From the NCBI GenBank assembly GCA_916610825.1, contig OU744446.1, forward strand, positions 32,960,936 through 33,024,935: 64,000 bases of DNA, read 5' to 3'. Made by a program: the position numbers and the translations under genes. Origin of the DNA: Haliclystus octoradiatus. Its lineage: Eukaryota; Cnidaria; Staurozoa; Stauromedusae; Haliclystidae. This document shows, in pieces, positions 10,947 through 62,103 of the stretch. The notes under the pieces were generated by a model, which made no database searches, was not told the origin of the DNA, and saw only the letters and a list, made by a program, of their open reading frames with translations. Within the stretch, counting starts at the first letter, position 1, and each line of letters starts with the position of its first letter.

Positions 10947-11019
10947 GTATGTACTTTAGATGTGAATTATATGTTACTACTGTATAAAAGCAAATTTCTA
11001 TCCCTAATATCACAAAGCA

Positions 11020-12075: not shown

Positions 12076-12198
12076 GATATATATTTTAAATCCGTTTCAC
12101 AACAAAGCGGGTAGGCTTTTAGTAGTGGCTAGTCCATTGTGATTACATTTACTCAATTACTCTAACAAATTTACAATGAGCTTTTTATATTTTGACAG

Positions 12199-23812: not shown

Positions 23813-23861
23813 AACTGATAGATTTTTTTACAGGGGAACAATAGATAAGTTAGATCCTTAC

Positions 23862-30355: not shown

Positions 30356-30519
30356 ATGAGAAAACGCAGTAGAAAAAAAGCGAAACAAAGTGTTGAAGTT
30401 GATTCAATGGATATGCCGCCTTTATCTGCAACAAATGAAATACAAACAACCAGACTGGACAATATTAATGAGAAAGAGACTCTGCATTGTGTTTGTCAAA
30501 CGCCTTTTAATGATCAAAG
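30356..30519 (+). CDS. Gene C exon 1: basic N-terminus and first PHD knuckle
   Basis: ATG at 30356, with a stop codon in frame 12 bp upstream, begins MRKRSRKKAKQSVEVDSMD, a basic start that may be a nuclear localisation signal. About 55 residues in comes LHCVCQTPFNDQ, the first knuckle of a PHD finger. His replaces the Tyr seen in gene A. The exon is 164 bp and ends CAAAG|GTAAGA in phase 2. Intron 1 (3.4 kb) holds an R1 repeat, (ATT)n blocks and a Penelope-like element. Confidence 0.78.
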
Positions 30520-30544
30520 GTAAGATTAATTACATCAAACATAG

Positions 30545-30810
30545 TCTGATAAACGATTTTTCCTCCCGGGATTCCAAATATTCGTTTCAAACTTTTTTGG
30601 GTGATTTCATAATGCAAATGTTTTCACATCTTTTTATTTTACAGTTATTGTCATACAAATATGATAAAAACTGCACATTTTTATTTCTCTGTCCAAGAAA
30701 AGAAAGCAATTCGATTAAAACAACTTGGATACAACTGTTCTTCCCCTTCCTTCTGAATTTGTGCTCGCCTTTCAAGACTCTCAGTCCCAGAATTCCTTAT
30801 TTTAGTGAAC
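30545..30810. repeat. Dispersed intronic repeat family R1, copy 3
   Basis: Same landmark order as 3291-3540, starting 25 bp after the donor of gene C exon 1, just as copy 1 lies in the equivalent intron of gene A. It may be ancestral intron sequence retained since the gene duplication rather than a transposon. Confidence 0.55.
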
Positions 30811-31316
30811 CATGACATCAAATAATGTAGGTACGGTACCTAGTCATTCATACGACTTATGAAACACTGAAAACTTTCTGAGAAGGACTAACAAGGTTGG
30901 TCTTTCAGTCTTTTTAGTCTATAATTGATAATTCCAATAAAAATAGTGGATTCAAAAAGATACATCGAAAAACGTTGTTTCAATCTGCCAACATCAAAAA
31001 AATTATCGGAGAGGTGTTAGCCCAATTTTATTATTATTATTATCATTATTATTATTATTATCAGAGAACAATATCATTTTTCAAACTTGATCTGACATTT
31101 TTATTGCCGATATTTCATGTGCAGAATTCGAACAGGCTGCAAACAACTTTCAATAGAATTTCTCTTTATAACATTATAATTTAGAGAAGCACTACAAGGT
31201 TAATATTTTATACGATACATTTCATATTTTATAAATAGAAAAAAAAATAAAAAAGAAATTTCCGTTTTAAAGTTGATCGACCATTTGCCGATGGCCGACC
31301 GCTAAATTGTTCTCTG

Positions 31317-31643
<327 letters not shown>

Positions 31644-31645
31644 TA

Positions 31646-31940
<295 letters not shown>

Positions 31941-32071
31941 TCAAGATAAAGGATAACGACAAAAAATAAACAGACTTAGGTTTAAACAACGTTTCGCAAT
32001 AGCTTAATTGCATCTTCAGGTTAAAAGGAATAACATATGAAATTACAAAGTATTTATAGTAAATATTATAA

Positions 32072-33418
32072 TATTATACCTATAACTTTGGACTTGCAAA
32101 ATGGTTAGATGAAAAATTGCAACCTTTATTGTGCAATCTCTACACTATTAATGATGTTTTTGATTTTTGTGAAGAAATTAAGACTACAACAATTAATATC
32201 TCTGATATATTAGTATCATATGACGTGTCATCATTATTTACCAATATCCCTGTTGAAAAAACTATAGATATACTAGTCCAAAAAGCCTTCAAAGATGACT
32301 GGTTCAATCAAACTCACAAGCTATCGTTAACGCCCAATGAACTTGCAGAGTTGCTATTATTAGCAACCAAGAACGAATTGTTTCAATTTGAAGGCGAACT
32401 TTTTGAACAAATTGACGGCGTTGCCATGGGATCACCTCTTGGACCCTTGATGGCCAACATATTCATGTGTGATTTAGAACAAAAATTGCAAGAACAGGAT
32501 TTATTGCCAAATTATTATCGTCGTTATGTTGATGACACCATAGCAGTTATGCCTAGTATTGAAAGTGCTAATAGCTTTCTCAAATTATTGAATGATAATT
32601 CAGAATTAAATTTCACTCTTGAAATAGAAGATAGAAATCAGATACCATTTATCGGTATATTACTAAAAAGAACTAATTGTAGTATTGAAACTTCGGTTTA
32701 CCGCAAACCCACTGACAATGGGCTATTGTTGCATTATAATAGTCATGTGGACATGAAATACAAACGGGGGCTGCTATTAACGATGCTTGATCGAGCACGC
32801 TGTTTATCATCTAATGATTATTTATTTAATTCTGAATGTATTACAATCAAAAACATATTTTTAAAACTTAAATATCCTATTTCCTTAATTAATTTTTGTA
32901 TTTCTAAGTTTAATTTACCTAATAATGCAGAATTAGACAACATAACCCACAACAAAAGAGATGCAATTAACATTGTTTTGCCTTACAAAGACCAGGTTTC
33001 CGCCAATTCACTACGGCGACAATTGAAAACTCTGAGTGTAGAAGTCGGACAGAGCTTTCGACCAGTTTTTAAATCTAGAAAAATAATTGACGATGTTCGT
33101 GTGCGTGAACCGAGGCCGGCTTTACTGTCTCGTCAATGCGTTGTTTACCTATTCCAGTGTGACTCTTGCGATGCGAGTTATGTCGGCTTTACTCGCCGGC
33201 ATCTACAACAACTTATTGACGAACATTGTGGGTCGGCAGTCGGTTTACACTTACAAACTCACAATAAAAATGTCAAAAATTCAGGACATCTTTTTTCTGT
33301 ACTGAGGAAGTGCACCGATAAGTTTGATTGTTTAATTCATGAAATGCTATCAATCAAAGAGCTAAGTCCGACCCTCAACATTCAGAAGGATTCCGTCCGG
33401 TCTAGGCTATTTGTATAA
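32072..33418 (+). CDS. Penelope-like reverse transcriptase with GIY-YIG endonuclease (5' truncated)
   Basis: The frame is open from a stop at 32069 to the TAA at 33416-33418 and has no ATG at the usual N-terminus. Visible reverse transcriptase motifs are SYDVSSLFTNIP (block A, first catalytic Asp), GVAMGSPLGPLMANIF (block B) and RYVDDT (block C, catalytic Asp pair). The thumb region has IPFIGILLKR and SVYRKPT. The C-terminal 100 residues carry the endonuclease: VYLFQCDSCDASYVGFTRR, with CDSC likely binding zinc, and a downstream EH. Everything before block A is mostly missing compared with a full-length element, so this copy is not autonomous. There are no internal stops or frameshifts, which suggests a fairly recent insertion. 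Confidence 0.9.
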   Translation, partial: YYTYNFGLAKWLDEKLQPLLCNLYTINDVFDFCEEIKTTTINISDILVSYDVSSLFTNIPVEKTIDILVQKAFKDDWFNQTHKLSLTPNELAELLLLATKNELFQFEGELFEQIDGVAMGSPLGPLMANIFMCDLEQKLQEQDLLPNYYRRYVDDTIAVMPSIESANSFLKLLNDNSELNFTLEIEDRNQIPFIGILLKRTNCSIETSVYRKPTDNGLLLHYNSHVDMKYKRGLLLTMLDRARCLSSNDYLFNSECITIKNIFLKLKYPISLINFCISKFNLPNNAELDNITHNKRDAINIVLPYKDQVSANSLRRQLKTLSVEVGQSFRPVFKSRKIIDDVRVREPRPALLSRQCVVYLFQCDSCDASYVGFTRRHLQQLIDEHCGSAVGLHLQTHNKNVKNSGHLFSVLRKCTDKFDCLIHEMLSIKELSPTLNIQKDSVRSRLFV

Positions 33419-33534
33419 CTCTAACTATAAGTAAATAATATATTATCTTTGTTGTATTGTTTTCTACCCAATTTTATAATCACGTAAATATTTACTATAA
33501 ATACTTTGTAATTTTATATGTTATTCCTTTTAAC

Positions 33535-33570
33535 CTGAAGATGCAATTAAGCTATTGCGAAACGTTGTTT
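33535..33570 (+). ncRNA. Hammerhead-ribozyme-like core in the right terminal repeat
   Basis: CTGAAGA at 33535 is followed by a 5-bp stem GCAAT/ATTGC closed by TAAGCT, then GAAA, then ACGTTGT, which could form the very short stem III typical of Penelope-encoded minimal type I hammerheads. Stem I pairing is weak in this copy. An inverted copy lies at about 31985-32019. Activity is inferred, not shown. Confidence 0.6.
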
Positions 33571-33640
33571 AACCTAAGTCTGTTTATTTTTTGTCGCTAT
33601 CCTTTATCTTGAAATGTTTTTCGAAGAAACTTTTACTGAA

Positions 33641-33889
<249 letters not shown>

Positions 33890-33899
33890 TCTCAAACAG

Positions 33900-34076
33900 C
33901 TACTATATTGGATGTGATGTATGTAACAATTGGTTCCATGGTGATTGTGTTGGCATATCTGAATCAGATGCAGAAACTATTACTGAATTTATCTGTAGCA
34001 TATGCAGAAAAGAAGTTCAATCTATAGAAGAAGGCAACATTCACTGTATTTGCAAGCAACCATATGATGATACAAA
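33900..34076 (+). CDS. Gene C exon 2: rest of PHD1 and start of PHD2
   Basis: The acceptor TTATCTCAAACAG precedes a 177-bp exon, phase 2 in and out, the same length as gene A exon 2. It encodes YYIGCDVCNNWFHGDC and CSIC, completing PHD1 (cage Phe, Tyr and Trp present), then IHCICKQPYDDT, the first knuckle of PHD2. It ends ACAAA|GTAAGT. Near-identity with gene A exon 2 at the DNA level (GCATATCTGAATCAGATGC) shows recent common descent or gene conversion. Confidence 0.85.
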
Positions 34077-35401
34077 GTAAGTAGATAGATTGCATCAAGT
34101 TTTTACCGTAAAATCTTTTGAGTTTTTTTTACCAACTAGGCTGTCAGTAGGTACATGTGGATTTTTCGAAAGATCAAATTGTAAGAGCACTTAGGCCAAG
34201 TGGGATTTGATATTTGCAAAAATTGAATTGAATGAGAAACTTTTAATGTTCATAATCATCAATAACTTATTAACTGTGCGTTTACTTAGTTGAGCAATCT
34301 AAAAAGAATTCGAGCAGGGCAAACCAAATGATGTGAATCAGCCACTTAGCATTCTTGTGACATCAGTTTTATTATGGTTTTATCAACTCGGGCTGAAAAC
34401 GAAAATATTGCTTTTTGAACACAAAATGTAAAAAGCAAGGCGTATGTCAATCTTGCATTAGAAACACCTACACAGTGATAATCAACTACACATAACACAA
34501 CTTTTGATGTATTTTTCATTGCAATGAATTCATAAGAATTTTTGGTATGTTCTTTCGAAGTTGTACTTTGACTTTTTATGTAGTTGAATTAGAAACTACA
34601 TAATTAAAATTACGATATATTATAAGATGCATTATTAAAGTATTGCAAACCTTTTATATTGTTAATTTATAATAAGAATTTAAGAAATGGCGAAGATTTA
34701 ATTTCACACCTTTATCAATGTGCTATATAATTGACACTGTTGTTGGTCAGGTGTTTAAGCCTTTTTCTACAGAAAAACACTATTTCAACTACTAAATGTC
34801 CTTGTATCTCATGTGTTTCTCAGTTAAATGAACTCGTTTCAAGCAAATAAGGTGTCCCGAAGGTGTAGGCGTACCTGACTCTGACGTTAGAAACTTTTAA
34901 TTCCGTGTAAATGGAGATACGATTTTTCAAAATTTTTAATTGTTCTTTTTTGTATAATAAGCCCTCTTGTCACTCCTACTATCGTTCCGAGTTTGGAAAA
35001 AGTACTGATCAAAAATATTGTAGACTCAACTTTAAATATCTCTGCTTAGACGCGTCAATCTAAGAAATCATTGTCGCCATTCTTCATCATTTAGCTTCAG
35101 CTTCTCGAATCTGTGATAGTTTTTTTTTGTGTGTCATGTGCAATTTAATATGAATACTCATTGAGCTATCCCTCAATTGCGTCATTGCCTTCCATTAGCA
35201 GTTGCAAACCTGGTCTTTTGAATTTCATTTAGTCATGGCTGCAATATTTATTGCTATTGCTTCATTGTGAGTTCCATTGTTCTCCCAACCAATCAAATTT
35301 AGATTTCACTTTTTACATCATTTTTCGTGTTTTCATTGTTTCAAAAATAAGTTGAGAATAAGAGGATGTCTGTTATCCAATCAGAATCAAGTAAATTTTT
35401 C

Positions 35402-35783
35402 AAGTATACAAGCTTAGTCATATAGCTAGCCTGCGTTACGGACCGCAATTCATTTACAAAAGAATAGCGTCGGTGTGATTTGCGCAGTTCTTTGTCCAGC
35501 CACTTTTCAAAAACGTAGAGCGGAAGTTTCTGATCGATGCATGGTTAATCTATTGTTCTTAGTGAATAAATTCATCACCTCTGTTCGATCAATTAATTGT
35601 CATAGCTACGAAGCCTAAAATAAAACTTATTGCAACCTTAGTCTTGCATAATTATGTGACATCAATCTTATTCTGATACGAGGCCCTGACAGAGAAACCG
35701 AGCAATTCACACAGACCCTATTCTTTCGTGAATGAATTGTGGTCTGTAACGCAGGCTAGCTATATGACTAAGCTTGTATACTT
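35402..35783. mobile_element. Foldback miniature element with about 52-bp inverted ends
   Basis: 382 bp. The first 38 bases (AAGTATACAAGCTTAGTCAT onward) are perfectly repeated in inverse at the right end, and similarity extends to about 52 bp. The inner part begins TAGCCTGCGTTACGGACC, akin to the hAT-like family at 11020. A piece of repeat R3 lies inside (about 35555-35630). Confidence 0.78.
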
Positions 35784-35958
35784 TCGGAAAAAACAAAGTC
35801 AAATTTCGTAAAAACACGGGGAGTGTTGCAAAATTGTCAGTACGATCGCAGAAAAAGGTTATTTGAAGGTGTACAACTATGTAGGCCTACAATGGAGGGG
35901 GTTTCAAATATTGAAACATTTAATGAGAACATGGTTTAAGGATGGCCACTCATACTGT

Positions 35959-36669
35959 CAGTGCCGGATTAATATTATCAGTGGCCTTGTATCAGTGGCG
36001 ATGTATTAAAAAGGGGCCTAAAAATTTTTCCCTGAAATTTTGGTAGCATTATTTTACTGTTTGTTGGACCCCCTTTATTCTGCTTTATATGAGAATTACA
36101 ATCACTGTCATTGAAAATACAAATGATTGTTTAGGTTAATACTGTAAGATGATTATTAATACATCAATGATGTAAAAGAATATATGGAAGTTAACTGTGC
36201 ATCTTTCCATCTAAAGTTAACGTACCTTTCATGTCAGTATTCTTTCAACCGCTGTGATCGTTTGTTGCCATGGCAACACAATATTTTCAGGATCATTTTT
36301 TCCACAACAGGAAGTTAAAAGTCATTACTTGGTGTTAAGGATAATGTGTTATTCCATCGTTTTCTTTGAATAGGGATTATGATTTGGTCCCGAAATAACA
36401 AGGCTGTCATCAAAATTTTGAGACAGGATCGAAATTCAAAATAATTAGGCAATTAAAAACTCGACCTCGGAGACACGTTGATCAATTTCTGGAGATATGT
36501 GACCAATTGATTTGTAGACAAACTGAACCAAGCTTTTATTCATTTAACGGTTTTAAAATTTCATTAGAAAGTATACATATAAATGTCTTTTTAAAGTGTG
36601 TTTTTTTTATTCCTGGAGGCCTATTTCTAAGGTGGCCGCCTAAACCGCCTATGGGTTAATCCGGCACTG
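35959..36669. mobile_element. hAT-type non-autonomous element
   Basis: 711 bp with inverted ends CAGTGCCGGATTAAT and GTTAATCCGGCACTG, flanked by an exact 8-bp duplication CATACTGT (35951-35958 and 36670-36677), the hallmark of hAT insertion. No transposase frame. Its right duplication ends 14 bp before the acceptor AG of gene C exon 3. Confidence 0.93.
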
Positions 36670-36692
36670 CATACTGTTTATTTCAATTGCAG

Positions 36693-36967
36693 GTTTTATG
36701 TATCATGCGACAACTGTCAACTGAAGTTTCATGGTTTATGTATTGGTATAACACAATCTCAAATTAATGAAATTAAAACTTACATCTGCACTACTTGCAC
36801 AAACACAAATACTACAAGTAAAGATACAGCTGACATTCCAAGTAACAAATCATCAAATCCAATTCCAAATGAATTGATTTCAATTGATGATGCAGCACAA
36901 AATACCCGCTGTAAAATAGAAACAAGTAATGTTACCTCCAACTCAGACTCAACATCTGGTATTATTG
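36693..36967 (+). CDS. Gene C exon 3: rest of PHD2 and Ser/Thr-rich linker
   Basis: The acceptor TTTCAATTGCAG is followed by G, completing Lys, then FYVSCDNCQLKFHGLC and CTTC, which end PHD2. The cage tryptophan (NNW or QDW elsewhere) is Lys here (QLK), so this second finger may not read trimethyl-lysine. An Asn/Thr/Ser-rich linker of about 50 residues follows. The exon is 275 bp and ends ATTG|GTAAGC in phase 1. That G joins to GT at the start of each downstream zinc-finger exon to make Gly (IIGHKCS). Confidence 0.82.
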
Positions 36968-37144
36968 GTAAGCATTTTGTTACATTATTGTCGTCACAAA
37001 CAATTTTCACTCAAACACTCAAAAATAAATTCATTTGGTTCATAAACTTTGGGAATATCATTTAAGATTTTTTTTGATATTCCCAAAGTTTACAAATCCA
37101 GTGGAATTTTCTTGGAGTGGTTGAGTTAGAATCATTTTACAATA

Positions 37145-37329
37145 CATTATAGCCCGCTTAAATGCAATTCAGATAAGTGGAATTCCCGCTTAATTGCAAC
37201 CTATCTTCGAAAAGAAGTTTACTATTTTATTGTCAAATCCTTGTTAAACAATTTCGGATAAGTGCAAATTAGGTTAAATGCAATGAAAATCGTTGGTGTT
37301 TTTGACTTGCACTTAAGCGGGTTACACTG
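37145..37329. mobile_element. Tc1/mariner-type miniature element (family M2), second copy
   Basis: Left end CATTATAGCCCGCTTA, right end TAAGCGGGTTACACTG, with internal similarity to 22639-22823 throughout. Confidence 0.7.
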
Positions 37330-37769
37330 AATTATTTAGTTTTGCATGGTTCACTCCTCCAACAATGGTTGTGTCTTGATTTTCTTGCATATCATCACTG
37401 TCATGATTATTTAAAACATGATAATCAAGAAATTGTACAGTAACACAGGATTTGTCTCATATGACAACATAGTCTTATACCTAGGTGTCAGGTATAATTA
37501 TACAACTATCGTCAATTGGAATCACCATTGTCATCATTGTCATCAACTGTGAACACATTTATAAGCCATTACAACGCATTCTTACAACGGCTTCTTTTAC
37601 AACGCATTAATAAAACACAAAATATTACATTTAAAACATTGATCTATAAACAATAATGATTTAAAAGTTGATTAATTTAAAAAAGCAGCTATTGTTTGGA
37701 TAATTATGATTTACAACTTTTTATAAATCGTACTGTTAGACTGTTCCGCAAGCAAGCGTCAGCATATTT

Positions 37770-38125
37770 GGAATAGTTGCGATGACTTATTTTATGAATA
37801 CTTCAATATTTGTTGAGGATCGTGCTTTTGTGGTTAATGGAGAAGAGAATGTGGTTAACGAAAGAGTAGCATTCCTGTATTTTTATTTTTTGTACCCTGG
37901 AAAGCTGCTTGAATTGCACCCCATCTCTGCGCTGAGCCAATCGAGTTGGCTAAGCATTACTGAGACAGGGGTCCGGTAGTGGCATTGGAGTTCTGTCCTC
38001 ATGGCTTCCTATGTAGTATCTGGAAGCTATCAAGGTCTTTCTTCATACAAGTCATTTGGACAACAACGCAGTATTCGAAATGTGGCAAAACAAGGGCATT
38101 GATGAACAAAGCTTTCTCTCTTCAA
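37770..38125 (-). pseudogene. LINE reverse transcriptase fragment
   Basis: On the minus strand 38125-37980 reads ALVLPHFEYCVVVQMTCMKK, the conserved C-terminal reverse transcriptase word LxxPHFDYC of LINE elements. After a stop and shift it continues YRTPVSVMLSQLDWLSAEM, which fits the usual TPxxxxLxxLxWLxxxxR thumb motif. Stops and shifts make it dead. Confidence 0.65.
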
Positions 38126-40055
38126 CAGGTAAGAATTTATTATAAATTTACTATGTTTTAGAATGCCTAGACGCTTTTTGACATTGATAGTGATTTGTTC
38201 TATGTGAGCATCAGAATTAAGGCTGCTTGTTGTCAATTTTCATACCATGATATTTTATTTATTGTATTTACTTGTTTTATATGTGAGTTCCGCTAGTTTA
38301 ACATTTAAACTACTATTGTTCAACGACTTGAGCACAGGCAAGGGTAATTTTTCAATTTTAAGAAGAATGTATATCCTTCATAGCTTCAACAAACTTCTGT
38401 GAATAAGAAATAATTGTGACACCCGCGTATGTATTTATGATACATTTATTTACTTCAAATGAAATATCATTTATGCCATAGACAAGAATTAAAAACCTGG
38501 AATTTTTCTAGCCTTCTGGTACTCAACAGTTTACCATGTCTGCTTCAGGTGCTACCTGGTCAATCTCTCTTCCGAAAGTATCAACCTTTTATTTAATGAA
38601 ATTTTAAAGAAGCTCAATGCACTTGCATATAGTACTAGACAAGTAGACCACACACTCTCTTCTGCACTCCGCTCTTCATCTTTTTTACAAGCACGTTGTT
38701 ATGTGCTGCTGAAAATGTAGAGTGCATGATGTAGAATCTAATCAAAGGTGATCTTAAAGACATTTTCCCCAGCATAGAAGACAGGAGTTTATGAATGTTA
38801 AATAGCCCCAATTTTCATGTTCGTCGATCTTAAACTGGATTTTCCTTTGCGTCTGCATTTAGTATTTTCTGTTATGTCATTCTCATTATTATATAATTCT
38901 CATTCATATGCAATGACGACCAAAGAGCACATCAATTCATGCAGAATTGTGTAGTTGCGTGCATGAAAGTGTCATATTTTCAAACCGGACACCAGATCAT
39001 CATATCAACAAAGACCAAAACTACTAATCCCATCATTAATCCAAAGCAGACGATCAAAACAACCTTGAAGCCAAAACATTATCTATCCAAACTAACCTAA
39101 CTTAAACTCAAAGTAATTAATCAATAAAATAAAAGTACATCAGGCAGAGGATTTGAACTGTAGTCTGTAAAAAATATGTGCCCAAGATTCACTCGACTGA
39201 CTAAGCATTGGAGCAATAGTGCCATACAACAATTTCTTGAAAGGTTTGTCAACTCGCAGTGTCCGGAGTCTCCCCATTCAAGTATCTTCATTTTCAGAAT
39301 CACATTGCATCTTGGAACCATTTGGCTGACTGTGACCAAATTCAAAAGATTTGTTTGAATTTATTATTGCACATTAGCTGGTCAAAAAGAGAATGATAGT
39401 TTGGAAATTAAATTGCATTCTTTATTTTGTTACTCTTATGGGGGAAATCATAAGTTCAAAATTTGATTTCAAAAAATATTGAGAAATGGGTGCTCATTAC
39501 CCCTCTAAATTAATAAGCAAAATCAATGGGGGAAAATGCTCCAAATTTTCAAACAACTCAGTAAAGTCCACTGACATACAAGTTTATTTTTGAATCATTT
39601 CAGGTAACATTACGTTTTCACATTTTCCCGCTTGTTCTTGCAAAAAACAAGCTGCCATTTTTAATTTTATTTCTCACGAAAACGAGGCAAAGCCTAATTA
39701 GTAACTCAAAACTAGGGCAAACCTCCTCTTTAAATGCTAATCAAGATTGCTAATGATTTTCATTGGATTTATACGAATTTCACATATCCAAAATTTAATT
39801 TCTCAACATGGTGTGTTTTACTTTTTCAATAACGAAAAACCTATCTATTAATCTATTTATCACAGAAAGATCGAACCCCATTGTTACCTCGAAATTTCCA
39901 AAAACAAAACAATTGCACAATTATGCTAGATTATGACGTGATATTTCAGAAACAGTGGAAGTGCTCATCAACAGTATTATATTTTGGAATTCTTGATTAA
40001 ATAATTTTACCAGGTCTTGATGTTAGACCCAATTGACTGCCATTTCTCTTTTCAG
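38126..40055. other. Gene C intron 3, first part
   Basis: No exon was recognised. A short TTCATGAA-family end lies at 38772-38822. The stretch 38825-38930 resembles 58880-58970 (AGATTTTCCTTTGC, GTCATTCTCATT). The last 150 bp before 40056 resemble the sequence before 43754 and 49490. Confidence 0.5.
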
Positions 40056-41875
40056 GTCATAAATTCAGTCATTCTTTGTTGGTATTTTCTTCTGAACTAT
40101 TCCTAAAACGGCATGTTTGCTTATGCAAAATCGTACAAAACTGTCATTGAGCATTGCATCAGAGTAAGTCTGCTGCACAGATAATGTTACGACCGGGCTA
40201 ACCGCTGCATGTTTTAACAGTCCAACAATCTACAAAAGAACTGAAACAACTAGATGTCGACCTGATAAATGTGACATTTGTAATAAAGAAATCACTTCTA
40301 AAGCTAGCTTAATTGCCCACAAGAGAGAAAGAAAGACGTTTTAGGCAGTCAGCTGATTTGCACGCACATATGAAAATCCATAGTAATGAGAAACCTCATA
40401 AATGTGATCAATGCGATAAAGAATTCATTGCCAAAGGTAGTTTAACTTCTCATAAACAAATCCATAGTGGAGAAAGACCTTATGTTTGTGATAAATATGA
40501 CAAACGGTTTTGCCAGGCAATTACTTTGAATAGACATGAGAAAATCCATAGTAATGAGAAACCTCATAAATGTGATCAATGCGATAAAGAATTCATTGCC
40601 AAAGGTAGTTTAACTTCTCATAAACAAATCCATAGTGGAGAAAGACCTTATGTATGTGATAAATGTGATAAACGGTTTTGCCAGGCAATTACTTTGAATA
40701 GACTTGAGAAAATCCATAGTAATGAGAAACCTCATAAATGTGATCAATGCGATAAAGAATTCATTGCCAAAGGTAGTTTAACTTCTCATAAACAAATCCA
40801 TAGTGGAGAAAGACCTTATGTTTGTGATAAATGTGATAAACGGTTTTGCCAGGCAATTACTTTGAATAGACATGAGAAAATCCATAGTAATGAGAAACCT
40901 CATAAATGTGATCAATGCGATAAAGAATTCATTGCCAAAGGTAGTTTAATTGCTCATAAACGAATCCATGGTGGGGAAAGACCTTATGTATGTGATAAAT
41001 GTGATAAACGTTTTGCCCAGAAAACTACCTTCAATAGACATAAGAAAATCCATACTAATTAAAAACCTCATAAATGTGATGAATGCGATAAACAATTCCG
41101 TACAAAAGTAATTTAACTGCTCATAAATGAACACATAGTGGAGAAAAACTTCTGTATGTGAAAAATTTGATAAACCGTTCACCCAGAGAGTTAGTTTAAC
41201 GACACATCAGAAGTTCCATACTTATGAAAAACCTTAGAAGTCTGATCAATTCAATAAAGCATTTACAACCAAAGATCATCTAACTGATCGATGTGATGAC
41301 TGCGATAAACAATTCCGTACAAAAGTAATTTAACTGCTCATAAAGTAATCCATAGTGAAGAAAAAACTTCTGTCTGTGAAAATGTGATAAACCGTTCACC
41401 CAGAGAGTTAGTTTAACGACAAATCAGAAGTTCCATACTAATGAAAAACCTTGTAAGTGTGATCAATTCAATAAAGCATTTACTACCAAAGATTATCTAA
41501 CTGATCATAAACGAGCACATATTGGAGAAAAGCCCTTTGTATGTTAAATTGTGATAAACGTTTTGCCCAATTTATTTATTTGAAGAGGCAAAAAAAATCC
41601 ATAGTAATGAGAAACCTCATAAATGTGATGAATGTGGTAAAGAGTTCAGATTAAAAGGTGCTTTAACTGTTCATAAACGAATCCACAGTGGAGAAAGACC
41701 TTATGTGTGTGGAGAATGTGATAAATGGTTTGCCCAGGCAGCTCATTTGGAGGCATGTAGGAAAATCCATAACAATGAAAAACCTCATGAATGTGATGCC
41801 TGCGATGTAAAGAATTCAGATTAAAAGGCGCCTTAACTGTTCAGAAACAAAATTCATACTGGAGATATAACTAAT
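40056..41875 (+). pseudogene. Gene C zinc-finger exon 1 of 5, decayed
   Basis: The acceptor CATTTCTCTTTTCAG and the phase-1 start GTCATAAATTCAG are kept, but the first cysteine codon is changed (TGC to TTC), a one-base loss shifts the frame near 40125, and TAA replaces AAA after the shift near 40165. From 40313 to 41062 about nine C2H2 fingers are still open, three or four of them as nearly identical 168-bp two-finger units (repeats start at 40381, 40549, 40717 and 40885), with one Cys-to-Tyr and one His-to-Leu change. From 41063 to about 41875 further finger remnants carry many stops and shifts. It is probably not translated. Confidence 0.85.
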
Positions 41876-43753: not shown

Positions 43754-45348
43754 GTCATAAATGCAGCAATTGTTTGTTGGTATTTTCTTCTGAAGTATTC
43801 TTAAAACGGCATATCTGTTCATACAAAAAACGTACAAAACTGTCATTGAGCATTGCATCAGAGAAAGACGCCTGCACAGATAATGTAACAACAGGGCTAA
43901 CCGCTCCATGTTTTAACAATCCAGCAATCTACGGAAGAACTGAAACAACTAGATGTCAACCTGATAAGTGTGAAATTTGTAATAAAGAATTCACTTCTAA
44001 AGCTAGCTTAATTGCCCACAAGAGAATTCATACTAAAGAAAGACGTTTTAGGCAGTCAGCTGAGTTGCACACATCGAAGATCTTCTATAATAATGGAAAA
44101 CCTCACAAATGTGATGAATGCAATAAAGAATTCACTACCAAAGGTAGTTTAACTTCACATAAACGAATCCATAGTGGAGAAAAACCCTACGTATGTGAAA
44201 AATGTGATCAACAGTTTACACAAGCAACTAATTTGAATGCACATAAGAAAATCCATAGTAATGAAAGATCTTATAAATGTGATGAATGCGATAAATCTTT
44301 TAGTATCGAAAAGTATTTAACTGTTCATAAAAGAGTCCATAGTGGAGAAAAAGCTTTTGTATGTGAAAAATGTGATAAACGGTTTGCGCAGAGCAGTGGT
44401 TTGACGATACATCAATTTTGTCATAGTAATGAAAAACCTCACAAATGTGATGAATGCAATAAGGAATTTACTACCAAACATAATTTAACTGTTCATAAAC
44501 GAACACATAGTGGAGCAAAACCTTATGTGTGTGAAAAATGTGAAAAACGGTTTACCCAACAACATCATTTGAGGAGACATGAGATAATCCACACTAGTAA
44601 GAAACCTCATAAATGTGATCATTGCAAAATAGAATTCACTACCAAAGGTAATTTGATTCTTCATAAACGAATTGACTGTGGAGCAAAATTTCTAGCAAAT
44701 AGTTTAAATATTATCAAATCCTACCATCGTTATGAAAATCGTCATACATGTGATCAATGCGATAAAAAATTCATCACCATGTATAAGTTGAAACAACATA
44801 AACGAATCCATACTGGAGATAGACCTTATGTTTGTGATCAATGTAATAAAGAATTCGCTACCAAAGGTACTTTAACTGTACATAAACGAATCCATAGTGG
44901 TGAAAGACTTTATGAATGTGGAGAATGTGATAAACGGTTTACCCAGGCATCTCATTTGGAGGCACATAAAAAAATCCATACTGGTGAAAAGCCTCATGAA
45001 TGTGATGATTGCGGTAAAGAATTCAGATTAAAGGGTGCCTTAACTGTTCATAAACTTACTGTACATAAATTGGATCACACTGGAGAAAAACGTTTCAAAT
45101 GCAAGGAATGTGGAAAATGTTTTACTCAATCATTTTATTTGCATATGCATAAAATATCTCATAAGAAGAAAACACCTTTTGAATGTGAGAAGTGTAACAA
45201 AGGTTTTACTGTTAAGGTTAGTTTAGTTAGGCATATGCGGATTCACACAGGAGAAAAGCCTTATTCATGCAATAAGTGTGAATGGAGATTCTCTCAAAGG
45301 GGTAGTTTGAAAAGACACATGAAACGTCTTCATGACAAAGGACTTTAA
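43754..45348 (+). CDS. Gene C zinc-finger exon 2 of 5, about 16 fingers
   Basis: The acceptor GTTTCTCTTTTCAG starts a 1595-bp exon in phase 1. Joined to exon 3 it reads IIG-HKCSNC and makes a 736-residue protein. It opens with a C2HC knuckle (CSNCLLVF...HIC), then about 15 C2H2 fingers, including one degenerate finger (ERRFRQSAEL region) and one with HxxxxC ending (KRIDC). It ends with a terminal finger and stop TAA at 45346. No ATG occurs in the first 240 codons, so the exon depends on an upstream exon. The expected role is DNA binding with its own specificity, sharing the PHD N-terminus. Confidence 0.88.
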
Positions 45349-49489: not shown

Positions 49490-51030
49490 GTCATAAATGC
49501 AGCAATTGTTTGTTGGTATTTTCTTCTGAAGTATTCTTAAAACGGCATATCTGTTCATACAAAAAACGTACAAAACTGTCATTGAGCATTGCATCAGAGA
49601 AAGTCGCCTGCACAGATAATGTCACAACAGGGCTAACTGCTGCATGTTTTAACAATCCAGCAATCTATGAAAGAACTGAAACAACTAGATTTCAACCTTA
49701 TAAGTGTGAAATTTGTGATAAAGAATTCACTTCTAAAGCTAGCTTAATTGCCCACAAGAGAATTCATACTACAGAAAGACGTTTTACGCAGTCAGCTGAT
49801 TTGCAAGCACCGAGGAAGTTATATAATAATGAAAAACCCCACAAATGTGATGAATGCGTTAAAGAATTCACTACCAAAGGTAGTTTAACTACTCATAAAC
49901 GAATCCATAGTGGAGAAAAAGCTTCTGTGTGTGAAAAATGTGATAAACGGTTTGCGCAGAGCACTGGTTCGATGATACATCAGTTTTGTCATAGTAATGA
50001 AAAACCTCATACATGTGATCAATGCAAGAAAGGATTCATTACCAAACATGATTTAACTTCTCATAAACGAATCCATAGTGGAGAAAGACCTTATGTATGT
50101 GATAAATGTGATAAACGGTTTGCCCAGGTATCTAATTTGAATAAACATAAGAAAATCCATTCTAATGAAAATCGTCATACATGTGATCAATGCAAGAAAG
50201 GATTCATTTCCAATTATGATTTAACTTCTCATAAACGAATCCATAGTGGAGAAAGACCTTATGTATGTGATAAATGTGATAAACGGTTTGCCCAGGTATC
50301 TAATTTGAATAAACATAAGAAAATCCATTCTAATGAAAAACCTCATAAATGTGATCAATGCAATAAAGAGTTCACTGCCAAAGGAACTTTAATTGTTCAT
50401 CAGAGAATCCATGGCGGAGAAAGACCTTTTGTATGCGGGGAATGTAATAAACGGTTTACACGTGCATCTTATTTGAATAAACATAAGATTATCCATACTG
50501 GAGAAAGACCTTATGTATGCGGGAAATGTAATAAACGGTTTGCCCATGCAACTATTTTGCATAGGCATCAGAAAATCCATTCTAATGAAAAACCTCATAA
50601 GTGTTATCAATGCAATAAGAAGTTCAGATTAAAAAGTACTCTAACTGTTCATCAAAGAATCCACAGCGGAGAAACACCTTTTGTGTGCGGAAAATGTGAT
50701 AAACGGTTTGCCCAGAAAGGTGGTTTGACGATACATCAGTTTTGCCATAGTAATGAAAAACCTCACAAATGTGATGAATGTGATAAAGAATTCACATTAA
50801 AAAGTAATTTAACTGTTCATAAACGAAGTCATAGTGGAGAAAGACCTTATGTATGTGGAAACTGTCATAAAGGGTTTACACATTCATCTAATCTGAAGGT
50901 ACATAAAATGTCCCATAGTATGACTAAGGAAAAATCTCATAAATGTGATCAATGCGATAAAGAATTCACATTTAAAGCTAATTTAACTGTTCATAAACGA
51001 AGTCATAGCGGAGAAAGAATTAGCAGATAG
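49490..51030 (+). CDS. Gene C zinc-finger exon 3 of 5, about 16 fingers
   Basis: The acceptor GTTTCTCTTTTCAG, phase-1 start GTCATAAATGCAGC and 1541 bp give a 718-residue protein with exons 1-3. The first 80 codons are almost the same as in exon 43754. A C2HC knuckle is followed by about 15 C2H2 fingers; two consecutive 168-bp two-finger units (the second starting near 50170) are almost identical to each other and to units in exon 60485. The frame ends early at GERISR-stop. Compared with exon 43754 the last fingers are missing and persist as a decayed remnant downstream. Confidence 0.87.
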
Positions 51031-51400
<370 letters not shown>

Positions 51401-51614
51401 GTACAATTTACAAGAAGAAATCTACTACTATTGACACAAACTATCTGCTCATCAAAAGATTCATGCTTATGATTCTTGTTTAAATTTATGACATTTTTTC
51501 ATGTTACAATCAATTGTTTTAAGAAGTGTTTCATTAAACTATTGAACATTGCGTGTTTGTTTCCTGACTGTTATGTGTGATCATCCCATTAACCATCTAC
51601 ATATTAGTATAGGG

Positions 51615-52163: not shown

Positions 52164-52171
52164 GTATAGGG

Positions 52172-54804
52172 TTACCACTCACTTGCCATGTTTGTATTTC
52201 TATTCACTAAACGAGAAAAAGTTGATATACACAAGTGAAGCCCCAAAACATCACAAGCTCCTGAGCAAGTGATTTTTAGCTTCCACGAATGTCTCCCTAC
52301 TTTTTGAATACAAGCATTTGCAAGCTTGTGGGAACCCTTTTCTAAAATGAAACAACCGTTGAAATGTAATTAGACGTTTAATTTTTAATTCACAATTTAA
52401 AATTCAATTTCAGTTCATAACAAAGGGAATTCTACAGGAATGTTGACAACTGTTGAATAAAGAAATACAGATGCAATAGCATCTGTAATATAAATTAACA
52501 TGTACAATAGTTCCCTAGGAAAATAATGTACAAATTGTTATTTAAATTTCAGGTTTACATTGAAACAGTGTAGCCTATAATTGTCTTTCATTCTGTGTTT
52601 TTAGTTTGCATGCTGCACAGCCAATAACTCCTTTACTATGCTTTTCAATAATCATACACATCTTGAACAAAATATAATTTTGTAAATCGTTGCCTTAATT
52701 GAGATATTCATTGGATTTTTATCGTAAAGTAATGATTTTTATATTTTATCACAGATTAAACTTTTTGAAGCTGGCGCTTTTTCCGGGTTTGCGAAGCCAT
52801 GTTTTACCTTAAGATTTCATGAATGCTCTTTCGACCAATCAGATCGCAGAAAGCCATTGTGATCTTTTAGAATGACCATTGATAGCATAGTAACCATTAG
52901 AGAGATTTCCATGTCAAATATATTTAGAGATGTTTAAAAAGAGACTATCTGTGGTATAGCACTAATTGTGAGAATGCAGTTATGTAGCTTCTTCATTAGA
53001 TATAAAATTGAAGTTAACATTTGCTTTAAAATAACACCAAGATATTTGGATAGATAGACAGACAGACAGACAGTTGTATGTTAAACTAAACAAATTACAC
53101 TAATGCAAATAAATTTTGCAAATTATGCTAACAAATCTACAGATTATAAAACTATAAAAAAACTATATAGCACAATTGGATAATTCGTCATTAAACTTGC
53201 CATCTTGTTTACACATATTATTTGGCATTGATGCGTGGATGGTTGTCTCTTTTTATTTGACTCATATCTAATATGACCTAATTGGTAGCCCCCACTAGTC
53301 ATGTACCAGTCACACTGTTAATCTAGTGTGAATTCCTATAATACTTCCCCTGCCAAAAAAATCCACGAGTCCATGAACTTTGTGATGAACATATATTTTA
53401 AGTTCATTAACAGTTCATAAACAGTCACAAAGAAATCATGAACACTGCATGGACTGGTTCATAAATGTGAAATTGCTTGAAAGTTCTTGAACAGTTCATG
53501 AACTTTGAGCAATTTCGCGTTCATAAACTCATGAACTTTCTTCGCAGTGGTTACCACCTTTGGTCTCTTTTGGGGTGTGGAATGGAGGGCAAATAATGCA
53601 AAACAAACAACAACTTTTGATTGAGTCAAATTTCTACGGTTTAATTTTAACTTCTATTTTGGTAATATATTGAAATGTTAGCAAAAGCATTTGATGTAAT
53701 AGGTTATCATCTAAACCTACAAATGTGGAATTGTGCATGTGTGTGTGATGTGTATGTGTGTTGTCCAATTTTTCTCTGCTTTGTCATTTTAATGCCTATA
53801 TTGAATATTTGGCTTGAGTGCTAGGTTGATGGATATTGATAGATTACCCAAACGTATTAACACTGATACAGACCTGTCACCCCAAACCCAAGCACAATTC
53901 ACATTGCTCAGTCAGTTGAGTACCTAATATACTTATAGTACCATAATTTCAGCAGAGATAGGGAAGGGAATTTGCTGTCCCTTTTTATTACCAAAATGAT
54001 GGTCCCATAAAAATGCGCAAAATTGTCAGTAGAGTGATAAGTTACTGATAACCTAATAAATAAGAAACATACTAAATATAATGTGCGAAAACCACCCCTT
54101 AGTGTGCAACCAATCATTATATCAACTTCTAAATCAAACTCAAAATTTCTAAATAACCAATAGAAATATCAATATATATAAAACAAATAAAATAATTTAG
54201 TCGAAGTCAAATTCTCCTAGCGAACTAGACAAAAATGGCAAGACTGATTACCACACCCACATAAGAGAGTCATGCACACTGCGAATTCATAAAAATTCAT
54301 AAAAATCACACTCGCCAATTCTCACGTGACCAATAAGATCTTAGTGTCCATCACTCGATCCGCTGACCATTTATACAATATAGCACTTGCCATGTTGGAC
54401 AACTCAAAATATAGTCATCAGTTTAACCTCAGTTAAAATGAATCATTTTAGCCACAAATAACAAGAAATGATAAAATATTTAGTATGTTTTTTAGCTTCC
54501 GTGTATTACTGTGTCTAAATTGACCTTTCAAAACTTAACCCGCCTCGACCTATACACACAGTCCTATAGTTTTTCTATAGTTAACTATAGCGCATGTGCA
54601 TAACATCCCATTGTTCGTAACAATTGAGCATGTGTAGAATATTGCTCCCCTATAATACCGTCTGTGTGCACAGTCACTTGTACAAAAGAGCGGAATACAT
54701 TCTCCAATCAATGTTTAAAAATGAAAACATTCTTTGAAAACATATCACTTTGGTGTCAAGCGTTTGCAAATGTTATAGTTTTTGTTATCTTTTGTTGAAT
54801 AAAC
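52172..54804. other. Spacer between zinc-finger exons 3 and 4, first part
   Basis: No exon. 53270-53620 is a diverged copy of 45885-46010 that carries the TTCATGAA element below. A GACA run lies at 53055-53071. The rest is AT-rich and without features I can support. Confidence 0.5.
53347..53550. mobile_element. TTCATGAA-family miniature element, copy with empty site
   Basis: 204 bp from CCCCTGCCAAAAAAATCCAC to CTTTCTTCGCAGTGG, rich in TTCATGAAC palindromes. It interrupts the word AATACTTACC, which is intact in the paralogous spacers at 42478 and 45940, with TT repeated on both sides. Confidence 0.8.
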
Positions 54805-55341
54805 ATGGCACCGCCTCAATCTCGTCGCAGAGCCTACAACGCAAACCTTGAAGTTCAAGTTGCTGAATTTTCTGAGCAGTCAAATGATTGTGTTGGATCT
54901 AGACAGTTTGATGTTATCAAGAAATTAGCTTGCGATTGGCGGAAGAGAAAGATCAATGTTAACAAAATTCCCAGGGCAAAACAAGCTAATCGTGTAGCAA
55001 TGTACAAATGGCCTGAATTGGAGAATTCAGCTATTCTGGGGAAAATGTAGTAGGTGTTCAAAATCTATGTTGATACACAAACTTTGCATCCGTTTTAAAA
55101 CTGAAGTTGCACAGAAATTGTCTCAAGACTTAATGTAGAACATACACAAAAAGAAAAATTCGAAAGCTGCACATATAGACCTTATTGCGCAATGGGTCCG
55201 TGGTTGCTGAAAGCTCTTCCTACTCCAATAGTCACTCATTATTTGAAAAAATATGGAGTTTCAAATGCTATGGGTGGCACTGAGGACAATGTAATATTGG
55301 AGGATGATAGTAGCGAAAGTAATTTCAATTTGCCCTGGCAC
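54805..55341 (+). pseudogene. pogo/Tigger-like transposase, core deleted
   Basis: ATG at 54805 opens an 81-residue frame with RRRAYNANLEVQVAEF and CDWRKRKINVNKIPR, the N-terminal helix-turn-helix DNA-binding region of pogo/Tigger-like (CENP-B-like) transposases. After a stop, 55165-55340 encodes, with shifts, DLIAQWV and LKALPTPIVTHYLKKYGVSN followed by a GTEDN word, the typical C-terminal end of the same transposases. The DDE catalytic core between them is gone (about 100 bp instead of about 900). It is an internally deleted relic. Confidence 0.75.
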
Positions 55342-56189
55342 CTTAGATCTGTGGCGGTCATTATCTCAATTTTAGCCTACATTAATTTCATTTTAAAACT
55401 TACCATTTCGTCAAGAAATCAAGATTTTCATTGCAAAGTTTTCTTTTCATCGCAGTGATTAAGCTATAAAGGACTATCTGTACTGATTCGTCATTGAGAC
55501 GTACATAAGTCGCGAAAATAAAAAATATGGAAATAAATGTAAAAATACTTAATATATAAATCGACAAGAGTATTAAATAAGAGGATAATTGCTTGTAAAC
55601 AGTATTATTGTCTTTGTACTCAATCTCATATTATTATTTTTTTTGAAGGGCCACTACTGTATTTTGATATAATATGATTATACATAATGATTAATGTCTA
55701 ATTCATTTGATATGCCATATTATACTAAAAAATGTATCCATTTTACTATTCCATTCGTCCATTTATCCATTATATTTCAATTCCAGCGTGCCTGGATTGT
55801 AAAACTATAACTTCTTTCAACAAATAGGATTAAATTAGCATCTAACTTGGGGAAGAGCCTGACCACATTTACCTAATTTGGACATTACTCCCTATGCTAT
55901 CTCTCTTGCCCCAGATTTCTGAAAATAACACTACGTTAAACAATCTATGGTGACACATACAAAACTTTCCTAAATTACCTAAATTGTAACTACATACAAC
56001 ATAAATAGAACTTGAACTACAATTGATCAGATCTGTAGTGTTTGCATCACTATCGTGATGTAAGCGAGTTCTATAAAAGCGCTTATTGATGAACATGTTG
56101 ATGCATTTAATCTTGTCATTATGTTTTCTTGAATAAACAGTTTTAAGATCTTGATGTTAGAGACAATTGATTACTGTTTCTCTTTTCAG
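55342..56189. other. Spacer before zinc-finger exon 4
   Basis: AT-rich with no recognised exon. The last 40 bp (TCTTGATGTTAG, then the C/T tract) match the sequence before the other zinc-finger exons. Confidence 0.5.
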
Positions 56190-57811
56190 GTCATAAATGC
56201 AGTTACTGCCTGTCAGTGTTTTCTTCTGAACTATTCTTAAAACGGCATCTTTGTTATTGCAAAAAACGTCCAAAACTGCCTTTGAGCATTGCAGCAAAGC
56301 AAGATGACTGCACAGATAATGTCACGACGGGGAACACGGCTGCGTGCTTTAGAAAACCAGCAATCCACAGAAAATCTGATACAACTAGATGTCAACCGTA
56401 TAAATGTGAAATTTGTAATAAAGAATTTACTTCTGAAAGAAATATAAATTCCCACAAGAGGATTCATGTCTCAGAAAACCCTTTCCAGTGTCTAAATTGT
56501 GATAAACATTTTACGCAAGAAACTGATCTGCAGACGCATATGAAAATCCATAGTAATGAAAAACCTCATAAATGTGATCAATGCGATAAAGAATTTACAT
56601 TAAAAGGTAATTTATCACGTCATAGAAGAATCCATACTGGAGATAGTCCTCATAAATGTGATCAATGCGAGAAAGTATTTTCAACGAAAGATAATTTAAT
56701 TCGTCATAAACAAATCTATTCTAGCGATAGATATATAGGAGGTTGTTTAAATAGAAATAAATCATGCCATCGTAAAGGAGAACCTTATACATGTGATCAA
56801 TGCAATAAAGAATTCACTACGAAAAGTAACTTCACTCTTCATAAACGAATCCATACCGGTGAAAGACCTTACCTATGTAATATATGCAACAAAGCTTTTA
56901 CTCGATTAGGTAGTTTGAATATGCACAAGTTATACCATCTACAAGGTGATGAAAGAGCTTATAAATGTACTTTATGCGATAAGAATTTTATAAGTAACTA
57001 TTCATTAACTGTACATGAACGTCTTCATACTGGAAAACTACCTTACCAATGTCAAGAATGTGGAAAACGTTTTAATCGACCTCATTATTTGAAGATACAC
57101 GAAATATCCCATAAAAAAGAAAAACCTTTTAAATGTGATATATGCAATAAAGACTTTGCTACTAGTGAATACTTAACTCTTCATAAACGAATCCACACTG
57201 GAGAAAGACCTTACATATGTGAAGTATGCAATAAAGATTTTACTCGATTAAGTAGTTTAAGTATACACAAATCTTACCATCATGATGGAATAGCTTATAT
57301 ATGTAATGTATGCGATAAGAAGTTTATAACTAACTATTTACTAACTGAACACAAACGTATTCATACAGGTGAAAAACCATACGCATGTAAAGAATGTGGT
57401 AAAGAATTTACTCAATCGAATTGTATGAAGATACACGAAATGTCTCATCAAAAAGAAAAACCTTATAACTGTGAGAAATGTAACAAAGGTTTTACAGTTA
57501 AGGGCAGTTTAATTATACATATGAGAACCCACACTGGAGAAAAACCTTATGTATGTGATATATGTAACAAAAACTTTAGTCAATTGTGTAGTTTAAAGGC
57601 ACATAAACTGTCCCATAGTAATGAAAAGCCTTTTAAATGCGATCTGTGCGATAAAGAATTCACTACAAAAGGTAATTTATCTATACACACACGAATTCAT
57701 ACTGGAGAGAAACCTTACAAGTGTCAACAATGTGGAAAAAGGTTTACTCAATTGAATGGTTTGAATAGACATGAAATGTCTCATAACAAAAAAAAATCTT
57801 TCAAGTGTTAA
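56190..57811 (+). CDS. Gene C zinc-finger exon 4 of 5, about 17 fingers
   Basis: The acceptor GTTTCTCTTTTCAG, phase-1 start GTCATAAATGCAGTTACTG and 1622 bp give a 745-residue protein with exons 1-3. It opens with the C2HC knuckle CSYCLSVF...HLC, followed by about 16 C2H2 fingers with intact ligands (one ends HKQIY, losing its last His). This is the most diverged and best-kept of the five arrays: finger helices differ from one another, with no identical 168-bp units. Stop TAA at 57809. Confidence 0.9.
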
Positions 57812-60484
57812 CTTGTAGCAAAATGTTTACATCTAGGCATAGTTCAGTTGTATATGTGCATATAACTACTATCTGTTCATCAATAGATTGTTTCTGAGAT
57901 CTAAATATATATGATATTTAATAATGTGTTGAAGTACAATTAATTGTTTGTTACCTGATTGATACGGGTGCCCTCCTCATTAGCCATCTAAATGTCATCT
58001 TTCTCTTATTCCACTCATATTGTTATTGCCCGATAAATTCAATTATCCGGCCTATCCTTTTTCAGTTTTTATATTTTTTTTCCTTATCCTTTTTTATTTC
58101 CGCAAAGAATAAGGACATCACGTGCACTATTACTCAGCTCATTTCTGTTATCCACCCTGTGAAATTGATTTGAGAGCGATCTGAGCAGAAATGTATTTTG
58201 AACATCCAACCTCAGTTTTTCAAATATATTTAAGAGGAGATATATTTGAAGAACAATTTGATTTCAAAAGTTGATCTGAATATCTATCAAAATATACCAA
58301 ACACATCAAGGGTACTTTTATTGACGATTTTGCAGGTCAAACAATATAAAAAATTAAATTTTTCTTCAAAAACGTGCTCTTTGACAGAAATGAACAATGA
58401 ATGTGGCAAAATGTTATTATTATGGTCAGTTATGTTGTTTTTTTGCTCATGAATGTTCATCGATGCACTCTACATCTCCAAAAGATGAAACAGAAAATAA
58501 TACAATTAATTATTGTAATCTTCAAATTAATTTAATTTTTATTCAATTGTTTTTGCTATAAACTATAAAGCATATCTTGATGATCCTAGAGATAATTTGC
58601 CAGAAATTTCTTAGAGTCAGATATGAAACAATCGCAACACTTTTAGTTGCACACAGAAAACAGATATTAGGGTTTTCATTTATTGCGATTAAAATTCACA
58701 GAATTCCGAACAATAGACATATGCTATGGCCCTCCATTTGCGATTATCTCTTCAAAACTAAATAGAATCATTAGGACGCTATATAGATTTATTTTGATGA
58801 ATTTCTGAAATTTTAAATCAGATAAAATCTCGCTAACTTCTTACGGCCAGAGCGTGAGATTGCTGTATAATTCATTCATTTTTAACTAGATTTTCCTTTG
58901 CAAGTGCAATGCATTTTTTGCTTTGTCATTCTCATTTCAACAAAATTCTGATTCATAACCAATGAAGTCCAGACTTCTCCCTCGTTTGACTTGCACAAAG
59001 AGAGAACTGTTACTCCAGGTGGACGACCTCTCTACCACTGAAGAAAGACAAACTCATTTAACCAAGTCCAAAAACCTGCAGGCAACCTACCAAACCAAAG
59101 GATCATAATATTACAAAACCTTATCACACTAACCCCGAGCAAGTGTCCCTTTTCCCTTTTCATTCTATCCAACGAACCTGAAGGACTCTTCCCGTCTGAC
59201 ATTCGATTGCAGTTGAGACATGCCCCGACCCCTTGTTTCTCTCCCAATCTAGAATAATTGGAATTTCATTGAACCACTCCCCTGTCAAAAAAGTTTAACG
59301 TTCATGAACTCCTGAACTGTTTTTCGCAGGGTCTATGCGTGCCACCTTCCCTCGCTTTTCTATATACTTGATCCCCTATGTCACTGTCCTATTTACCACT
59401 GTACTGAACGTTAAACGCGCCCAATTTTCGGTTCTTGAACAAATCATGAAAAATTGGAACCATTTAACATTTATGAACTCCTGAACTGTTTTTCGCAGGT
59501 TCGTTGCTTTTCACCCCTTCCATCGCTTGCCCATCGCTTTTCTAGATACTTTGAGGATCCCCAATCTCCCCGTACTATCTACCATTCAGCATGACTCCTT
59601 GTAGCATGACAAAATATTAAGGAACTGATGTTTCCAAGAAAAATAAATTACAACTCAAAATTCAAATAAAAATGGCCACGGTAAGCCCCTGATGACAGCC
59701 GTTCCAAGCCAACCCCCTGGTGCCCACAAATGGACCAAAAAGGTATCAAGAACCATTTACATCCCTTCGAATGTCTAGTTAATTTGATCTGCCTTATTAT
59801 ATGATTTGTAAAATTACATGATATGTCCATTCTACTTTATCAATAATGCACTTCCAACCTTCATTGTAAAACTCTCATTTTCTAACAAAATCAAAGCAGC
59901 GAATAGCCTGTCCATCTTTACGTGATTAGACAGGATCCCCCCTTGCTATCTTTCCTACCCTATATATATTTCGTGAACCAACACTGCATAAAAATAATTC
60001 ATGGTAAAACATTCCTCACTTACTTTCATCGACTCAATTATAACTACTACAAGATAACAACATTTTACTTCTATTTCTGAGAAATCGCTGTCGATGCATT
60101 CAATCTTATTTAAAAGTTGTTGTGCCGTATTCCGGTAGACAAATTATAAATTACTTGACACAAATTCGAACGCCTGACGCATTCTTTGATATAAATGTAT
60201 CTGAGACTTGCCTTGGATCTTCATTGAGTGCAAAACCAATAATGCAATATTGAGTTGTTATTACCTATAATATAACTGTTTATTGATTTAACTCTCTCAT
60301 GATGATTTGGAACAGACATTTTCACCACATTTTGATGAACATCTATCCTCACATACTTTCTGCGTGAAGTATCTACACAATATTTATCACCAGTAATTGG
60401 AGAATATAAATTTTAAATTTCTTGTATAATCAATTTTTCAAGATCTTGATGTTACAGACAATTTACTGTCGTTTCTCTTTTCAG
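57812..60484. other. Spacer between zinc-finger exons 4 and 5
   Basis: No exon. A finger-free 3' tail up to about 57960 resembles those of the other copies. 58880-58970 resembles 38825-38930. TTCATGAA-family ends lie at 59277-59329 and 59402-59501. The last 45 bp match the sequence before the other zinc-finger exons. Confidence 0.5.
59277..59501. mobile_element. TTCATGAA-family ends, two pieces
   Basis: 59277-59329 and 59402-59501 both end in ATGAACTCCTGAACTGTTTT followed by TCGCAGG, the family's right terminus. The second also has GAACGTTAAACGCGCCCAAT near its left. They look like a solo end and a short copy. Confidence 0.65.
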
Positions 60485-62103
60485 GTCATAAATGCAGTTA
60501 TTGTCTGTCAGTGTTTTCTTCTGAAGTATTCTTAAAACGGCATATTTGCTATTGCAGAAAACGTTCAATCCTGCCTTTGAGCATTGCAGCAGGGAAAGAT
60601 GACTGCACAGATAATATCACGGCCGGGCTAAGCTCTGGATATTTTAACAATCCAGCAATCTACGGAAGAACTGAAAAAGCTAGAATTCAACCTGATAAAC
60701 GTGGAATTGGTAATAAAGAATTCACTTCTAAAGCTAGCTTAATTGCCCACAAGAGAATTCATACTAGGGAAAGACGTTCTACGCAGTCAGCTGATTTGCA
60801 CGCACGGAGGAAGTTCTATAATAATGAAAATCGTCATACATGTGATCAATGCAAGAAAGGATTCATTACCAATTATGATTTAACTTCTCATAAACGAATC
60901 CATAGTGGAGAAAGACCTTATGTATGTGATAAATGTGATAAACGGTTTGCCCAGGTATCTAATTTGAATAAACATAAGAAAATCCATTTTAATGAAAATC
61001 GTCATACATGTGATCAATGCAAGAAAGGATTCATTACCAAACATGATTTAATTTCTCATAAACGAACCCATAGTGGAGAAAGACCTTATGTATGTGATAA
61101 ATGTAATAAACGGTTTGCCCAGGTATCTAATTTGAATAAACATAAGAAAATCCATTCTAATGAAAATCGTCATACATGTGATCAATGCAAGAAAGGATTC
61201 ATTACCAAACATGATTTAATTTCTCATAAACGAACCCATAGTGGAGAAAGACCTTATGTATGTGATAAATGTAATAAACGGTTTGCCCAGGTATCTAATT
61301 TGAATAAACATAAGAAAATCCATTCTAATGAAAATCGTCATACATGTGATCAATGCAAGAAAGGATTCATTACCAATTATGATTTAACTTCTCATAAACG
61401 AATCCATAGTGGAGAAAGACCTTATGTATGTGATAAATGTGATAAACGGTTTGCCCAGGTATCTAATTTGAATAAACATAAGAAAATCCATTCTAATGAA
61501 AAACCTCATAAATGTGATCAATGCGATAAAGAATTCTGCAGAAAAGATAATTTAGCCGTGCATATGCGAATTCATAGTGGAGAAAGACCTTATGTATCTG
61601 ATAAATGTGATGAACGGTTTGCCCAGGCAGCTCATTTGAATACACATAAGAAAATCCATACTAATGAAAAACCTCATAAATGTGATCAATGCGATAAAGA
61701 ATTCTCTACAAAAGGTAATTTAGCTATGCACATGCTAATCCATACTGGAGAAAGACCTCACAAATGTGATATATGCAACAAAGATTTTAATCACTTGAGC
61801 AATTTAAATATGCACAAATTATATCATTGTAATGATAGATGTTATAAATGTGACTTATGCGCTAAAAAATTTATAACTAGCCGTCTGCTTGCTGAACATA
61901 AACTTATCCATGCTGGCGAAAAACCATTCAAATGTGAAGAATGTGGAAAGGATTTTACTCAGTCGAGTTATTTGCATATGCATGAAAGATTCCATGAAAA
62001 AGAAAAACCTTTTAAATGTGAGAAATGTAACAAAGGTTTTACAGTTAAGCGTAATTTAATTATGCAAGTTGCGATAAATGTGAAAAAAGTTTCGCTCAAA
62101 TGA
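60485..62103 (+). CDS. Gene C zinc-finger exon 5 of 5, with 168-bp repeats and a truncated end
   Basis: The acceptor CGTTTCTCTTTTCAG, phase-1 start GTCATAAATGCAGTTATTG and 1619 bp give a 744-residue protein with exons 1-3. After the C2HC knuckle, the next finger has lost both cysteines (DKRGIGNKEF). Four nearly identical 168-bp units follow (starts 60831, 60999, 61167, 61335), each with fingers of the type KKGFIT..DL.SHKR and KRFAQVSNLNKHKKIH. About seven varied fingers then follow, one with Cys to Ser (YVSDKC). Near 62065 a deletion joins LIM to the next finger out of frame, so the last finger (CDKCEKSFAQMTSL in the other frame) is lost. Confidence 0.86.

Follow-up and report, generated by a model that had tools for sequence, protein, structure and literature searches.

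One PHD-type N-terminus ahead of several candidate zinc-finger endings at a locus of the staurozoan Haliclystus octoradiatus

Can a single gene offer one PHD-type N-terminus to several alternative zinc-finger ends? This question is raised by gene C, which lies in a 64 kb stretch of the Haliclystus octoradiatus genome (G000:C1:32960936-33024935, hereafter the window; no N, genome of 261,861,806 bases in 33 contigs). In a piece of COX1, which lies on an 18,316-base contig of this genome, AGA stands at a position that is arginine in animal COX1, in line with the cnidarian code. The loci known to us in which a shared N-terminus is combined with alternative zinc-finger ends are all insect BTB genes, and a narrow literature search of open papers returned no title resembling a PHD version of such a locus. 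The original prediction, made from the window alone, described gene C as a lola-style locus with five zinc-finger endings. Our analysis supports this in part: one constant exon set precedes phase-matched endings, four of seven of which are open, but the predicted ending at 40056 proved to be broken.

The constant part of gene C consists of three exons on the plus strand. Exon 1 (30356-30519) carries the start codon and the first half of PHD1, is open from its ATG and ends in phase 2 at the donor AAAG/GTAAGA. The second half of PHD1 and the first half of PHD2 are found in exon 2 (33900-34076), and exon 3 (36693-36967) adds the second half of PHD2 and a linker, up to the donor ATTG/GTAAGC. As predicted, exon 3 ends in phase 1 with G, the joined exons being 616 nucleotides (nt) or 205 codons plus this one base. 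A Pfam search of the joined exons detected PHD (PF00628, 4.2e-16) in two stretches, with PF13831 scoring best on the second finger. Three families reach 0.001, all of them PHD-type, and no N-terminal BTB domain was found in the constant part at this cut-off. Since the constant part matches PHD-type families only, gene C stands outside the BTB family. Exon 2 is constrained when compared with exon 2 of gene A, a paralogue in the same window, showing a ratio of nonsynonymous to synonymous substitution rates (dN/dS) of 0.16 (0.07-0.30). Intron 1 contains an open frame of 448 codons (32072-33418, plus strand) which by eye resembles reverse transcriptases of the Penelope type, including a terminal GIY-YIG part, judged by features typical of these elements.

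Downstream of the PHD exons and on the same strand we located seven copies of a zinc-finger exon, four open and three broken. The five copies inside the window had been predicted to lie behind a common acceptor, and TTTCAGGTCATAAAT indeed matches five times in the window when up to two mismatches are allowed, all matches being exact and at the predicted places. Shuffled sequence gave a mean of 0.64 and a maximum of 3 matches, and none of 100 shuffles reached five. All five exons start with GTCATAAAT directly after TTTCAG and are in phase with the donor at 36967. The expected junction peptide Gly-His-Lys-Cys is read in four of five cases, but the copy at 40056-41875 (plus strand) reads Gly-His-Lys-Phe, after which its frame breaks. 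Two further copies, at 67718 and 79008 in window coordinates and thus beyond the window, are broken as well.

The four open exons (43754-45348, 49490-51030, 56190-57811 and 60485-62103, all plus strand) run for 530, 512, 539 and 538 codons beyond the junction codon, which equals the predicted range of 513-540 codons when that codon is included. Open runs expected by chance on the plus strand are far shorter: in 40 random 64-kb sequences of the window's dinucleotide make-up the longest run averages 128 codons and never exceeds 184. The absence of an ATG near the start of these exons was likewise confirmed, the first in-frame Met being residue 342, 161, 117 and 360, respectively. A strict motif counts 12-15 fingers in each live ending, which is a single exon in every case, and the four resulting gene C models comprise 718-745 residues, sharing the PHD part and differing in the C2H2 array. 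Homology common to all seven copies ends about 75 nt upstream of each exon (e.g. from 39980-40055). This block of about 75 nt evolves at a near-synonymous rate, yet the copies have a common homology edge. False haplotype duplication during assembly is unlikely because the window is without N, the spacers of the copies are mostly unlike and their finger arrays differ widely.

We consider it probable that gene C forms a single transcription unit in which a constant two-PHD N-terminus is combined with alternative zinc-finger last exons derived from exon duplication, one of four being chosen. Exon anatomy, phases, homology, open frames and a second locus of similar layout, described below, were established from the sequence. 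Transcription would begin upstream of 30356 and continue through the endings; the phase-1 donor at 36967 would be spliced to one of the four intact acceptors (43754, 49490, 56190 or 60485), and the transcript would be cleaved and polyadenylated behind the chosen exon. The product would be a PHD-PHD protein bearing one of four zinc-finger arrays, each of which would presumably bind a DNA sequence of its own. Cis alternative splicing together with alternative polyadenylation would be the simplest route, the genome sequence alone fitting cis as well as trans joining. Docking and selector pairing of the Dscam type was not found when the seven acceptor-side blocks were compared with the 600 nt at the start of the shared intron (z between -1.92 and 1.62).

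The overlap of dN/dS values between live and broken copies weighs slightly against a choice among four working endings. Openness is clearly beyond the neutral expectation in two of the four open endings. An alternative, which we regard as unlikely, would be that normal use is limited to a single ending, presumably the intact one closest to the PHD exons, the remaining copies being duplicates that arose recently or are decaying. Still more doubtful is that the zinc-finger exons represent separate genes, each with a promoter and a distant first exon of its own. Every new copy would then need to acquire its own phase-1 first exon; the seven copies as a set share nothing above about -75 nt. In agreement with the original prediction, a genome-wide protein search and a motif scan revealed no PHD exon between 36967 and 62103, and thus none between the copies in the window. 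The idea that each ending has its own PHD was also rejected, since none was found in the window by the protein search or by the motif scan of 184 kb, which covered the flanks except for 2,500 of 120,000 letters, where an exon might lie, and which also missed the short finger of gene B; the PHD query of the protein search carried one extra residue at the first exon junction. Least probable of all, we think, is that the endings are transcribed apart and either trans-spliced to the PHD exons, as is reported for isoforms of mod(mdg4) and lola (PMC11426971, PMC4667647), or given a spliced leader: all seven copies lie downstream of the PHD exons on their strand, and a leader alone is disfavored because the first in-frame start occurs only at residues 117-360.

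The proposed arrangement as one transcription unit with alternative last exons resembles that of lola in Drosophila, where a constant N-terminal part is combined with variable C-terminal C2H2 fingers; accounts of this gene list 20 isoforms, 17 of them with different C2H2 fingers (PMC11426971). In contrast to the TTK-type BTB domain of lola, the constant part of gene C is a PHD part, its four live endings are single exons with 12-15 fingers each, and the host is a cnidarian. Isoforms of lola have been shown by RNA, whereas those of gene C are predicted from genome sequence. In mod(mdg4), too, a single N-terminus is shared, by at least 30 or 31 3' endings (PMC11426971, PMC4667647). However, mod(mdg4) combines BTB with mostly FLYWCH endings, uses trans-splicing and in D. 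melanogaster draws its endings from both strands, whereas the endings of gene C are C2H2 and all found on one strand. Expansions of KRAB, ZAD and similar C2H2 genes also proceed by finger duplication and divergence of contact residues, but each such gene normally has its own N-terminal domain, which in gene C would be shared.

Similar exon sets occur elsewhere in the genome. Two zinc-finger exons (open reading frames of 753 and 642 codons) come after PHD set D on C2, and another two (412 and 327 codons) after PHD set E, the first of the latter being followed by more fingers in another frame. No PHD exon was found between the two zinc-finger exons of either pair. The donors of both sets have a phase-1 end with G that suits each of the four acceptors, the junction codon being Gly in three cases and Ala in the fourth. 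At 18.369 Mb on C4, a PHD exon lies about 2.4 kb upstream of a leader-like exon on the same strand whose acceptor fits phase 1, a candidate joining. In sum, loci with phase-1 zinc fingers behind BPTF-like PHD exons make up a family in this genome, and the one-to-many layout is present at two places of it, C1 and C2. At C4:34243730-34435642 there are five zinc-finger matches of the leader type, distributed over both strands; the one that was checked is phase 1 with Gly. The genome-wide protein search gave no BPTF-like PHD match nearby, and these endings perhaps belong to another shared N-terminal domain. At C4:21244590-21264377 there are five or six weak tandem PHD-like matches, depending on the search; the one frame inspected (L036) is by eye like a Ulp1-type protease, and the matches perhaps represent a transposon family.

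The best solved relative of PHD1 of gene C is BPTF (2fui, 3.2e-18, top of 41 distinct sequences), and in the genome-wide protein search the gene C PHD matched a BPTF-like PHD exon on C5 of the same genome with 8.6e-25. The C5 gene, BPTF-like by its PHD fingers, has a tandem PHD pair over three exons split at the same places as in gene C. Gene C models differ from BPTF in ending in C2H2 arrays, and the Pfam families listed for their PHD part and for each of the four live endings include no bromodomain. The methyl-lysine cage of BPTF consists of Y10, Y17, Y23 and W32. The corresponding residues, read by eye from the structure-match alignment, are H, F, Y and W in PHD1; in PHD2, read by eye from the translation without a tool alignment, they are H, Y, Y and K, the Trp being lost. 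Because the aromatic set of PHD1 is close to that of BPTF, it is plausible that PHD1 still reads the histone H3 tail. Frames coding for zinc fingers, one of them beginning in a leader-like way, were also observed on the minus strand at C5:23651758-23655798. They lie on the strand of the BPTF-like PHD exons at a distance of about 20 kb and might reflect the way in which PHD and zinc fingers became fused.

Taken further, these findings raise an idea for which we see about even chances, namely that a cnidarian evolved a modular regulator independently of the insect BTB genes. A histone-mark reader copied from BPTF would be combined with zinc-finger last exons in a cassette that can expand, each exon being duplicated with little beyond its acceptor. 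Births and deaths of exons would enlarge or erode this cassette at no fewer than two loci (C1 and C2), and one promoter and reader could thereby be re-aimed at several DNA targets. If so, finding a PHD version in a cnidarian would imply independent origins of the design with a shared N-terminus, in this case out of a chromatin reader, and one locus (four open, three broken) would show alternative last exons being born and dying. A single gene could direct one chromatin reader to several DNA sites, and isoforms differing only in their DNA address would permit a direct test of histone-mark reader targeting. Whether the PHD part is joined to more than one ending could be addressed with existing public RNA reads, such as the poly(A) RNA-Seq run ERR9434978 listed in PMC9975415.

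The neighboring single-ending genes A and B would then possibly represent the ancestral state. Gene A (2737-13571, plus strand) is composed of exon 1 (2737-2795), exon 2 with the PHD1 and PHD2 halves (3650-3826), exon 3 with PHD2 and a linker ending in phase 1 (10627-10946) and a sole phase-1 zinc-finger last exon (12199-13571); the model has PHD-PHD and 15 fingers in 642 residues. Gene B lies on the minus strand and combines one PHD with one ending; it has an exon carrying the second half of the PHD and a linker with a phase-1 end (23862-24103) and a sole phase-1 zinc-finger last exon (18399-19108). The phase-1 junction is thus found in both genes alike. Dense short repeats of the TTCATGAAC type occur at 23700-26300, inside and beside an intron of gene B.
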